Below the pieces are notes generated by a model. That model worked only from the letters and a program-made list of their open reading frames with translations. It had not been told where the DNA came from and did not search any database. From Phenylobacterium sp. (GTDB taxonomy: Bacteria; Pseudomonadota; Alphaproteobacteria; Caulobacterales; Caulobacteraceae): a stretch of DNA of 64,000 nt. The DNA is taken from NCBI RefSeq assembly GCF_016124325.1, contig NZ_WGNY01000007.1:1-64000 (forward strand). Direction: 5' to 3'. Below are positions 8,023 to 19,385 of this stretch, in pieces; position 1 is the stretch's first letter, and every line of letters starts with the position of its first letter. The translations under genes were made by a program, and so were the position numbers.

Positions 8023-9936
8023 TCAGGCGGCCGACTGGGCGGCCGTCCGGCCCGGCGTCGCGCCCGTCGCCGCCGCGTTCAGCGTGGTGGCGATGGCGTC
8101 GTAGAGCTTGGCGATCTCGATCGGCTTGGCGACGTGGGCGTCCATGCCCGCGGCGAGGTATTCCTCGACCTGGTGGCTCATGGCGTTGGCGGTGAGCGCC
8201 ACGATCGGCGTGCGGCGGCGGCCGCTCTGCTTCTCGCCCTCGCGAATCTTGGTCGCGGCGGTGATGCCGTCCATCACCGGCATCTGGATATCCATGAGGA
8301 TCAGGTCGTAGACCCCGGTGCGCCAGGCCTCCACGGCCTCCTTGCCGTCGGGGACGATGTGGACGTCGATGCCCAGCGAGCCCAGCACGGCGGCCAGGAC
8401 CTGCTGGTTGGTCGGGTTGTCCTCGGCCGCGAGCAGGCGCAGGTCGCCCTCGTCCGACGCCACGGCCGTCTCCGGCGCATCGACCGAGGAGGGACCGCCG
8501 CGCCTCAGGGGCAGCTCGACCGTGAAGGTCGAACCATGGCCCTCGCGGCTTTCCACATTGATGGAGCCGCCCATCATCTGGGTCAGCTCGCGGCAGATCG
8601 CCAGGCCGAGGCCGGTGCCGCCGAAGCGGCGCGTCGCCGAATTGTCGGCCTGGGTGAATTTCTCGAACAGGCTGGGCAGCTTCTCGGGCGCGATGCCGAC
8701 GCCGGTGTCGCGCACCACCACCTTGAGGGCGCCCGACGGGGCGGCGTCGAACGAGGCGGTGACCGAGCCCTGAGGGGTGAACTTGACGGCGTTGGAAATC
8801 AGATTGCCCACGATCTGGCGCAGGCGGTCGGCGTCGCCGCGCCACCAGCCCCGAGCCTCGTCGGTCACGTCGACCGCGAACTCCAGGTTCTTGGCCTCGG
8901 CCATCACCGCGAAGCTGTCGCGCGCCTGGATGACCACCGACTCGAGGTCGAAGTCGTCCTCGAACAGCGTCAGCTTGCCCGCCTCGATCTTCGACAGGTC
9001 CAGCACGTCGTTCAGCACCGCCAGCAGCAGGCCGCCCGACCGGCGGATGACGTCGAGGCGGTCGCGCTGGACGTCGTCCAGCTGGCCCATCGACATGACC
9101 TCGGCCATCGCCAGCACGCCGTTCAGCGGGGTGCGGATCTCGTGGCTCATATTGGCCAGGAACTGGGTCTTCAGCACATTGGCCGCGTTGGCGGCGTCGC
9201 GGGCGAGTTCGAGCTCGCGCATGGCCCGCTTCAGGTCGTCCTCCCGCTCGGCCAGCTTGCCCAGCAAGTGGTTGAAGCTCTTGGTCAGGCTCTCGAACAG
9301 CTCGTCGCGGGCCTCGACCACCACCGGCGTGAAGCTGCCGCCCGCGGCCACGTCGTGCATCGCCTTCGACAGGGTCTGGACCGGCTGGATCACCCGGTGC
9401 GCGAGGCTGCGCGCCAGGAACAGGGCCACGCCCACGCCGCCGAACAGCAGGACGAAGGTCAGCGCGATGAACTGCGGCAGCATCGGCGCCAGCGACGGCT
9501 GGGCGACCACGACGCTGATCTTACCGGCCGGCTTGCCGGCGACCACGATCGGTTGCTCGATCGTCTCGACCTCGCCGGCGGCGGGCGCGTTGTTGCGCAT
9601 GGTCGCCAGCTCGCGCCCCGAGGCGTCGACGATCTGCGCCGAAATGACGTCGGGACTGGCCTGAATGGACGCGATCGCCTGGCCCAGCCGAATGCGCTCG
9701 CTGGGGGCCATCCCGGGCGAGGCCATCTGCGCCGCCGTGACCGCGAGGCTTTCGTGGAAGCGATGCGACTGGGTGCGCGCGACCGCCCACTGCTGCAGCA
9801 TGAAGGTGAGGCAGGCGGCCACCAGAACGACGACCGTGGTGATCAGCCCGACACTCGCGACGCGTGCATGAAACGTCGCAGTCGGCGCCGAACTCTTCGG
9901 CGGCCCGTCTTCCGTATTGGCGCCCCGCGCACTCAT
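8023..9936 (-). CDS. hybrid sensor histidine kinase/response regulator
   Basis: A 637-aa membrane sensor. TM1 lies near residues 28-48 and TM2 near 153-178, with a ~100-residue periplasmic sensor region between. HAMP covers ~180-235 and a coiled linker follows. The HisKA box NMSHEIRTPLNG has phospho-His at about residue 265, HATPase_c has DTGVGI and GGTGLGLAI, and the receiver domain has phospho-Asp in LMDIQMPVMDG near residue 549. The receiver acidic pair is AEDN. It ends in an Ala-rich tail. With no Hpt or partner regulator adjacent, it probably feeds a phosphorelay elsewhere. It is divergent from a small conserved-looking gene, with TTAACC motifs between them. Confidence 0.95.
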   Translation of the reverse strand: MSARGANTEDGPPKSSAPTATFHARVASVGLITTVVVLVAACLTFMLQQWAVARTQSHRFHESLAVTAAQMASPGMAPSERIRLGQAIASIQASPDVISAQIVDASGRELATMRNNAPAAGEVETIEQPIVVAGKPAGKISVVVAQPSLAPMLPQFIALTFVLLFGGVGVALFLARSLAHRVIQPVQTLSKAMHDVAAGGSFTPVVVEARDELFESLTKSFNHLLGKLAEREDDLKRAMRELELARDAANAANVLKTQFLANMSHEIRTPLNGVLAMAEVMSMGQLDDVQRDRLDVIRRSGGLLLAVLNDVLDLSKIEAGKLTLFEDDFDLESVVIQARDSFAVMAEAKNLEFAVDVTDEARGWWRGDADRLRQIVGNLISNAVKFTPQGSVTASFDAAPSGALKVVVRDTGVGIAPEKLPSLFEKFTQADNSATRRFGGTGLGLAICRELTQMMGGSINVESREGHGSTFTVELPLRRGGPSSVDAPETAVASDEGDLRLLAAEDNPTNQQVLAAVLGSLGIDVHIVPDGKEAVEAWRTGVYDLILMDIQMPVMDGITAATKIREGEKQSGRRRTPIVALTANAMSHQVEEYLAAGMDAHVAKPIEIAKLYDAIATTLNAAATGATPGRTAAQSAA

Positions 9937-10056: not shown

Positions 10057-10112
10057 ATGGTTAACAACTCCTGAATCGGTTGCGTGCAGCTTAACCACTG
10101 CTTTACCTTAAC
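10057..10112. promoter_or_regulatory. cluster of CtrA-like half-sites and a GANTC site
   Basis: The 208-base divergent gap is AT-richer than its surroundings. It holds TTAACCAT on the minus strand (10064-10057) facing the histidine kinase, TTAACCAC on the plus strand (10091-10098), another TTAAC (10108-10112), and GAATC (10073-10077), which fits the CcrM methylation target GANTC. No complete TTAA-N7-TTAA CtrA box is present. In Caulobacter such half-sites and GANTC mark cell-cycle-regulated promoters; that use here is inferred. Confidence 0.45.
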
Positions 10113-10144
10113 GGGTGTCGGGTAACTTTAAGGGGTGTTCCCAC

Positions 10145-10480: not shown

Positions 10481-10508
10481 CGCCTAAGCTTTCTAGACTT
10501 TAACTGTT

Positions 10509-10540
10509 GCTGCACCCCTTTGAGTTCTAAGGGGTGCAGC
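10509..10540 (+). promoter_or_regulatory. perfect 12-bp inverted repeat enclosing the ribosome binding site
   Basis: GCTGCACCCCTT and AAGGGGTGCAGC are perfect inverted repeats around an 8-base loop (TGAGTTCT), ending three bases before the ATG of the membrane-protein gene. The right arm contains AAGGGG, the likely Shine-Dalgarno, nine bases from the ATG. In RNA the hairpin would hide the ribosome binding site. No T-run follows, so a simple terminator for the upstream gene is less likely. Confidence 0.7.
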
Positions 10541-10543
10541 ACC

Positions 10544-10963
10544 ATGTCGGCCTATACGATATTCCTGATCGCCCTGGCGTTTTGTCTGGGGTCTTGCGTA
10601 TTCGCCCTGGTGAAGGGCGGAACGCCTGAGCGTATCGGCGCGCTCATCATCCTGGCCAACCTCATGGCCACCGCCGCCAACGAAAACCTCCTGCACGACC
10701 AGCGCATCCTCCTGGCGATCGATGGGCTCACCGCCGTGGCCCTGCTGCCGTTGACGCTGCGCTACGCCAGCGTCTGGCTGGGCGTCGTCATGCTGCTCTA
10801 CGGTCTCCAGTTCGGCTTGCACGCCTTCTACTTCGTGCTGGAACGGCCGAAGGACGCCCTGCACGTGACGATCAACAACGCCAACTTCTGCGCCATCATC
10901 CTGAGCCTCGGCTGGGGCACCATTCAGGCTTGGCGCCAGCGGAGCGTTCGCGCCGCGGCCTGA
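10544..10963 (+). CDS. small four-helix integral membrane protein
   Basis: A 139-aa protein; I chose the ATG giving MSAYTIFLIALAF rather than the TTG lying in the hairpin loop. About four hydrophobic segments are visible: residues ~3-22, ~31-46, ~55-95 (long enough for two passes) and ~115-131, with short charged loops. No enzymatic motif is seen. The preceding hairpin covers its ribosome binding site, suggesting control of translation. Function unknown. Confidence 0.75.
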   Translation: MSAYTIFLIALAFCLGSCVFALVKGGTPERIGALIILANLMATAANENLLHDQRILLAIDGLTAVALLPLTLRYASVWLGVVMLLYGLQFGLHAFYFVLERPKDALHVTINNANFCAIILSLGWGTIQAWRQRSVRAAA

Positions 10964-11049
10964 CGCGGAGCGCCTGCGCCATAGCGCCGCTGAGAGGTGC
11001 GTTCAGAAAACTTCCGCTTGCGCTGCGGCTCGAACCCTGGCTTTTGGCG

Positions 11050-11107
11050 CGCGGGCCACGCCCTCCCAACGGGGCGCTGCCCATCTGCAAGGATGGGAGA
11101 CATCGCT
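11050..11107 (+). ncRNA. candidate serC leader RNA motif
   Basis: Immediately before serC there are two consecutive hairpins. CGCCC/GGGCG occupies 11059-11063 and 11072-11076. The perfect CCCATC/GATGGG (11080-11085 and 11092-11097) has loop TGCAAG and runs into the ribosome binding site GGAGA. Position, gene order (serC-serA) and a terminal hairpin abutting the Shine-Dalgarno fit the serC cis-regulatory motif described for Alphaproteobacteria. I recognise it from context and structure, not from an alignment. The ligand or mechanism of the class is not established. Confidence 0.65.
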
Positions 11108-12277: not shown

Positions 12278-12286
12278 CGCATTCCT

Positions 12287-12383
12287 CCCTTCCCCCTTGC
12301 GGGGAAGGGCCGGGGATGGGGGTGCGAAACCCCCTCTCCAGTTCCACACCCCCACCCCAACCCCTCCCCGCAAGGGGGAGGGG
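12287..12383. repeat. GC-rich palindromic element between serC and serA
   Basis: Two hairpins flank a third pairing. CCCTTCCCC/GGGGAAGGG lies at 12287-12309 and CCCCTCCCC/GGGGAGGGG at 12361-12383, with GGGGGTG (12318-12324) able to pair with CACCCCC (12347-12353) between them. The pattern matches interspersed palindromic units common in Caulobacterales-like genomes. It lies in the intergenic space, so serC and serA may still be one transcript; it could attenuate or stabilise it. Confidence 0.8.
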
Positions 12384-12402
12384 CGTTGCGAGGAAACCCT
12401 CC

Positions 12403-19274: not shown

Positions 19275-19385
19275 TAGAGCACGATGGGGTCAGGTGGAAT
19301 CACCTGACCCCATCGTGCTCGAGATCCAAAAGCATAGAGCGCGTTCGAGCGGCGAAACCGCTCACACTTTCGCCTAACGTGCTCA
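19275..19385. repeat. bipartite palindromic repeat, copy 1
   Basis: Left hairpin: GAGCACGATGGGGTCAGGTG and its perfect 20-base complement around loop GAAT (19277-19320); the centre spells GAATC, a GANTC site. The linker GATCCAAAAGCATAGAGC follows. Right hairpin: AGAGCGCGTT/AACGTGCTC (one mismatch) enclosing GAGCGG/CCGCTC (19336-19384). The right end overlaps the stop codon of the convergent glycosyltransferase gene. It has the same architecture as the element after glk. Confidence 0.85.

Follow-up and report, generated by a model that had tools for sequence, protein, structure and literature searches.

What does a perfect RNA hairpin do when it lies across the translation start of a small membrane protein gene? 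The question arises in a 64,000-nucleotide stretch of Phenylobacterium DNA (the window), where such a hairpin stands directly before a gene that closely follows another. Judged by synteny, that is by gene order and the published description, the locus is hmrA-hmrB-hmrC (Table 1): a divergent hybrid kinase, a small HPT-like protein and a multi-transmembrane (multi-TM) protein without known family, in an arrangement confined to Caulobacteraceae. Neither the HmrB nor the HmrC orthologue of the window falls into a Pfam or NCBIfam family. In Caulobacter crescentus the three genes are CC_3219, CC_3218 and CC_3217 (hmrC is also listed as CCNA_03324), and according to the published account HmrC is a multi-TM protein, proposed to be a stress sensor acting upstream of HmrA, in a pathway that governs the motile/sessile switch of Caulobacter between swimming and surface attachment (PMC11481889). 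The same source describes the metal-responsive regulator UzcR as upregulating hmrC and interacting with the hmrC promoter, separately from hmrB; it also describes a rise of hmrC under copper, with no rise of the other hmr genes, and upregulation of hmrC in cold shock (PMC11481889). An RNA hairpin, a leader or a transcript start for hmrABC is absent from the available text of that paper. In other reported observations, hmrB is bound by GcrA and CC_3218 is part of a starvation CtrA regulon.

Several further elements surround the three genes. A TTTACCTTAAC-like stretch upstream of hmrB (10100-10144) recurs in relatives, and the same genome encodes a second HmrB-like protein (G000:C36:59370-59624, 35% identity), such paralogues being common in the family. 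Downstream of hmrC lie serC and then serA. Of the known RNA families the serC leader alone gives a match; it is the cis-acting RNA of the next gene and is independent of the hmrC hairpin. Between serC and serA, at 12283-12386, is a long imperfect palindrome (CCCTTGCGGGGAAGGG...CCCCTCCCCGCAAGGGGGAGGGG), probably a dispersed intergenic repeat, which sets off many spurious miRNA matches in Rfam.

Table 1. Features of the hmr locus and its surroundings, in positions of the window
Feature	Position	Strand	Remarks
hmrA orthologue, hybrid histidine kinase (HisKA, HATPase_c, Response_reg)	8023..9936	-	divergent from hmrB
hmrB orthologue, 111 aa	10145..10480	+	its His74 agrees in number with the histidine reported for C. 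crescentus HmrB
Conserved box adjoining the stem on its 5' side, candidate activator site of the hmrC promoter	10488..10503	+	GCTTTC-TAGACT-TTAA here
5' arm of the 12-bp perfect stem	10509..10520	+	GCTGCACCCCTT
Loop, 8 bases	10521..10528	+	TGAGTTCT
3' arm	10529..10540	+	AAGGGGTGCAGC; holds the Shine-Dalgarno (SD) sequence AAGGGG at 10529-10534
ACC and the ATG start codon of hmrC	10541..10546	+	ATG at 10544
hmrC orthologue, 139-aa membrane protein	10544..10963	+	gene directly behind the hairpin
serC leader RNA (RF00517)	11049..11101	+	47.7 bits, gathering 35; ahead of serC

Read directly, the sequence from 10509 to 10546 is GCTGCACCCCTT-TGAGTTCT-AAGGGGTGCAGC-ACC-ATG. An earlier note on this DNA, made from its letters alone, had described a perfect 12-base stem with an 8-base loop and, in the 3' arm, AAGGGG nine bases from the ATG; the arms (10509-10520/10529-10540), the AAGGGG (10529-10534) and the ATG (10544) are where that description puts them. 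In RNA folding the helix is lengthened by pairing of 10505-10508 with 10541-10544, whereby the A of the hmrC ATG pairs with 10505. Arms and loop together occur once in the 4.9-Mb genome. Perfect stems of 12 bp or longer, closing a loop of no more than 10 bases, are found in 4 places in the window, compared with 0-2 in Markov-shuffled 64-kb sequences; the window's longest perfect stem is a 20-bp inverted repeat with a 4-base loop at 19278-19321 (GAGCACGATGGGGTCAGGTG gaat CACCTGACCCCATCGTGCTC), which has no T-run after it. The hmrC hairpin is real and far above chance expectation, and the strongest evidence for this is comparative, namely that almost every orthologue retains the stem through compensatory changes.

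HmrC turned up in 52 of a sample of 100 relatives (52 of the 60 in the genus, this genome included, and none of the 40 in the order's other families) and in 211 of 299 Caulobacteraceae genomes, representing 14 of 22 genera; HmrB was found in 119 of 149. A hairpin of 12-18 bp ending at the hmrC start codon lies upstream of about 145 orthologues in at least 11 Caulobacteraceae genera, and it is kept whether that codon is ATG, GTG or TTG. By automatic tally the start-abutting hairpin is present in 141 loci and missing from 14, several of which, on inspection, have a wrong start choice or a larger loop; L044, L060, L104, L127 and L149, negative in the first pass, turn out by eye to have a larger loop, mismatches within the stem or a start that was chosen wrongly. 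The gap from the end of the stem to the start codon is -3 to +8 in nearly all orthologues, whereas among relatives 49 to 132 nt separate the hmrB stop from the hmrC start. Thus, the stem is tied to the start of hmrC.

The earlier note had suggested that relatives be compared for compensatory changes, and this comparison shows the pairing to be conserved through them. Among 38 aligned non-redundant sequences, 15 of the 18 pairs of the family-wide stem have changed on both sides, with 129 cells changed on both sides against 39 in shuffles and a covariation score of 0.605, compared with 0.230 when shuffled and at most 0.167 when slid; RNAalifold agrees with this result. With a stem finder that scores G-U and A-C alike, the cells that are not Watson-Crick pairs comprise 104 G-U and 8 A-C, and in a de-duplicated set of 80 distinct stems the counts are 85 G-U and 10 A-C. 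The G-U excess is present in both G-U orientations, although its nominal p-value makes the case look stronger than it is, because the sequences are related. Mismatches of the G-U and not the A-C kind point to selection on the + strand RNA, since a DNA operator would show no strand bias. On this comparative evidence, the paired form of the hmrC hairpin is selected as + strand RNA.

The same asymmetry decides against reading the inverted repeat as DNA bound by a dimeric protein that represses or activates hmrC. The repeat does adjoin a promoter-like box, and according to published work hmrC is transcriptionally controlled by UzcR (PMC11481889). However, an operator is expected to have a conserved sequence and strand-symmetric variation, and here complementarity alone is conserved, the sequence of the repeat is not, and G-U mismatches outnumber A-C mismatches by about 9 to 1, unlike a DNA site. 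We therefore reject the operator as highly improbable.

What the RNA structure would do to translation can be predicted from its energetics. In the window, opening the region from SD to AUG is predicted to cost 27.1 kcal/mol in read-through RNA, compared with 8.2 if the RNA starts at the loop; over 141 loci the predicted median cost for positions -15 to +3 is 22.6 kcal/mol in read-through RNA and 7.7 in RNA from the loop. The SD and the start codon are masked in every fold, and in the longer RNA one or both lie within a stable helix. At an opening cost of 27 kcal/mol, initiation on read-through RNA should be blocked, and the prediction thus supports the earlier note in its claim that the hairpin would block initiation. 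An SD is kept in the 3' arm: the best anti-SD duplex formed by the 25 nt upstream of hmrC has a median of -5.8 kcal/mol in 123 loci and reaches -4 kcal/mol or lower in 93% of loci.

The further suggestion, that heat, a small RNA or a protein opens the hairpin, fares less well, the stem being long, perfect and GC-rich, unlike a thermometer. An RNA thermometer was rejected on the grounds that the Rfam model search gave no family match at the hairpin and that the stability is too high for the marginal, physiologically meltable structure expected of one (27 kcal/mol to open, with a perfect 12-bp stem). A thermosensor role is, judged from the modelled stability, unlikely. A search for a trans-acting partner site for the hairpin found none.

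Could the structure instead belong to hmrB? The observation that the upstream gene has the same ribosome binding sequence without the hairpin, from which it had been argued that the structure was added for control, holds for TAAGGGGTG in this genome and its nearest kin and fails in most relatives, where the hmrB SD is unrelated to TAAGGGGTG (e.g. AGGAGGG or GGAGG). Since the hmrB SDs differ in most relatives, the shared sequence is a local coincidence, and the idea that the hmrB SD is a copy of the 3' arm, with the 5' arm able to pair with either, was rejected for the same reason. Translational coupling through ribosomes that finish hmrB is disfavoured: the stem begins 15-67 nt (median 28) downstream of the hmrB stop, at or beyond the limit of what a terminating ribosome would cover.

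The hairpin might also be an intrinsic terminator or 3'-end stabiliser of hmrB, with the masking of the hmrC ribosome binding site (RBS) a by-product of tight packing. Many relatives have a T-run after the stem (TTTTTCATG, CCCTTTTTTCATG), with at least 4 T in 8 nt in 34-42% of Phenylobacterium/Caulobacter loci and in most other genera. A GC-rich hairpin with a direct U-run is found in part of the relatives, among them L140, L151 and L152, of which L140 is a textbook terminator with the SD outside the stem, and in one clade a separate terminator takes the place of the hairpin. However, the stem in the window is followed by ACCATGTC and not by a T-run, no terminator-like site was found there, and a good T-run is absent from most loci. 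In addition, the stem abuts the start codon of hmrC, with the A of the ATG frequently taken into the pairing, whereas its distance from the hmrB stop varies. We consider this reading rather unlikely.

A second conserved element bears on how hmrC itself is transcribed. The bases directly before the stem are nearly invariant in Phenylobacterium and Caulobacter, (A/G)TTGC(A/G)ATAG(T/A)TTAA(C/T), and stand at a fixed distance from the start, while the sequence further upstream shows no conservation. In most loci of these genera the box takes the form (C/G)(A/G)TTGC-N6-TTAA; NNTTNC-N6-TTAA is present in 51 of 71 Phenylobacterium and 27 of 30 Caulobacter loci, compared with 0.3% in shuffles, and CATTGC-N6-TTAA in 34 loci of the two genera, with looser forms elsewhere. 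CtrA sites have the form TTAA-N7-TTAA, and a CtrA site was rejected for the TTAA box, its spacing being unlike this. In the urcA promoter the site of UzcR, CATTAC-N6-TTAA, precedes the transcript start by 43 or 53 bp (PMC8963506), and the near-match to this published consensus suggests that the box may be a UzcR site. The box departs from the consensus, reading CATTGC at best and, more weakly, GCTTTC in the window, and in the genomes searched it hardly occurs away from hmrC, which is odd for a global regulator's site. Copies with one mismatch (TTGCRAAAGTTTAAT) occur at G000:C36:48493-48507 and G022:C1:230109-230123, in two Phenylobacterium genomes, and may mark a further target of the regulator.

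Because the box adjoins the stem, an hmrC promoter there would start its RNA inside the stem, and if the box is the activator site of hmrC, the hairpin DNA must be the stretch that RNA polymerase occupies. Scores for a -10-like element peak within the 5' arm, 12-13 nt beyond the box, whether or not a locus has the hairpin. In the stem of the window no good -10 was seen at the expected place, and a sigma-70 scan gave no promoter-like site.

If the whole hairpin were instead carried in the working mRNA of hmrC, it would be a regulated translational switch, opened by a protein, a small RNA or temperature. The complete masking of SD and start codon would suit such a switch, retention of the SD would make no sense unless an RNA with a leader were translated, the adjoining box could belong to an RNA-binding site, and hmrC is reported to go up in cold shock (PMC11481889). 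We nevertheless regard a switch as unlikely. Known thermometers are unlike this stem, which has no mismatch and is very stable, at about 26 kcal/mol; the stem sequence drifts freely, so that no protein- or small-RNA-binding sequence is conserved beyond the loop-proximal part; and the reported induction of hmrC is transcriptional. The box, moreover, is still present where the start-abutting hairpin has been lost and thus works alone and looks like a DNA element. It is more doubtful still that box and hairpin form one unit, a new cis-regulatory RNA within the hmrC mRNA that a factor induced by stress (metal or cold) would open; if true, this would add a translational layer to the motile/sessile switch of the Caulobacteraceae.

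What the analysis shows is the structure and its conservation, selection on the sense-strand RNA, the masking of the SD as a prediction, and a constant placement of box and stem with respect to the start of hmrC. The best explanation, in which we place about half our confidence, is an insulating RNA hairpin of the T4 gene e type that abuts the start codon between hmrB and hmrC. In read-through RNA from hmrB, the stem would hide the SD and start codon of hmrC, and hmrB transcription would yield no HmrC; where a T-run follows the stem, as in some lineages, the hairpin could also end that transcription. HmrC would be expressed from a stress- and metal-responsive promoter of its own, with the activator box adjoining the 5' arm. 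RNA polymerase starting inside the stem or at its 3' side would omit the 5' arm and leave the SD exposed. We infer three steps here, namely that the box is a UzcR site, that the transcript starts inside the stem and that the hairpin insulates. The earlier note had itself counted a transcript start inside the stem against its proposal, and such a start is what is now predicted. One point against the insulating role is that measuring the UzcR distance from the centre of the motif would place the start close to the ATG; the message would then be leaderless, and the kept SD would have no explanation. Of the two less probable readings, a switch that is opened in trans and termination alone, neither fits all the facts as well as the insulating hairpin.

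Six Caulobacter loci (L105, L122, L177/L207, L190, L193 and L198) carry a GC-rich hairpin and T-run straight after hmrB; they have a longer gap to hmrC, an intact box and no start-abutting stem. In a seventh, L194, the end of hmrB is missing. The terminator-bearing loci form one clade (support 1.0), and the swap of terminator for hairpin is therefore a single evolutionary event. Gain of a terminator with loss of the hairpin is what an insulating role would predict. In L221, from Phenylobacterium, hmrC lies 62 nt behind hmrB (start near base 985, reverse strand) with neither box nor hairpin, a natural loss of both. Among tandem hmrC duplicates (L018, L028 and L168/L219), the second copies have neither hairpin nor box.

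An insulating hairpin would explain how hmrC and hmrB are controlled separately despite lying tens of bases apart, a matter of some importance given that hmrC is placed, in the published account, as the gene of the proposed stress sensor atop the swimming/attachment pathway in Caulobacter (PMC11481889). The absence of the structure from Rfam is probably an oversight, since the sequence of the stem is not conserved, only its pairing and position. A chromosomal, family-wide hairpin that masks an RBS with strong compensatory evolution represents a clear case, and we view the hmrC hairpin as a strongly supported new instance of a known control and not as a new kind.

How does it compare with known systems? 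The locus resembles hmrABC of C. crescentus, as far as the available part of its description goes, in gene order, in a 111-aa HmrB-like protein with His74, in a domainless membrane protein and in the divergent kinase; to that description the hairpin is an addition (PMC11481889). Like the RNA thermometers ROSE and fourU, it is an RBS-masking hairpin before a stress-related gene; unlike them, imperfect structures near melting at growth temperature, it is perfect and worth about 26 kcal/mol. RBS masking specific to RNA that enters from outside is also a feature of the IS10 and IS50 transposase mRNAs. With the insertion sequences IS10, IS50 and ISPpu9 the hmrC locus shares an RBS masked by 5' structure, which keeps expression low; unlike them, it has no mobile element, and what is masked is a sensor gene passed on vertically. 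An antisense small RNA opens the ISPpu9 structure (PMC8450116); there is no sign of one at hmrC. The closest parallel is found in phage T4, where gene e (lysozyme), soc and gene 49 have inhibitory RNA structures; in gene e, long early transcripts form such a structure and promoters just upstream of the RBS give a shorter, translatable RNA (PMC3014915). As in these three genes, the SD and/or AUG of hmrC would lie in a stable helix of long read-through transcripts (PMC3014915). In gene e the shorter RNA without the 5' part is translated, and at hmrC we infer its equivalent. The T4 genes are phage genes under temporal control, whereas hmrC belongs to a chromosomal two-component signalling locus, and its stem has persisted throughout a bacterial family by way of many compensatory changes.
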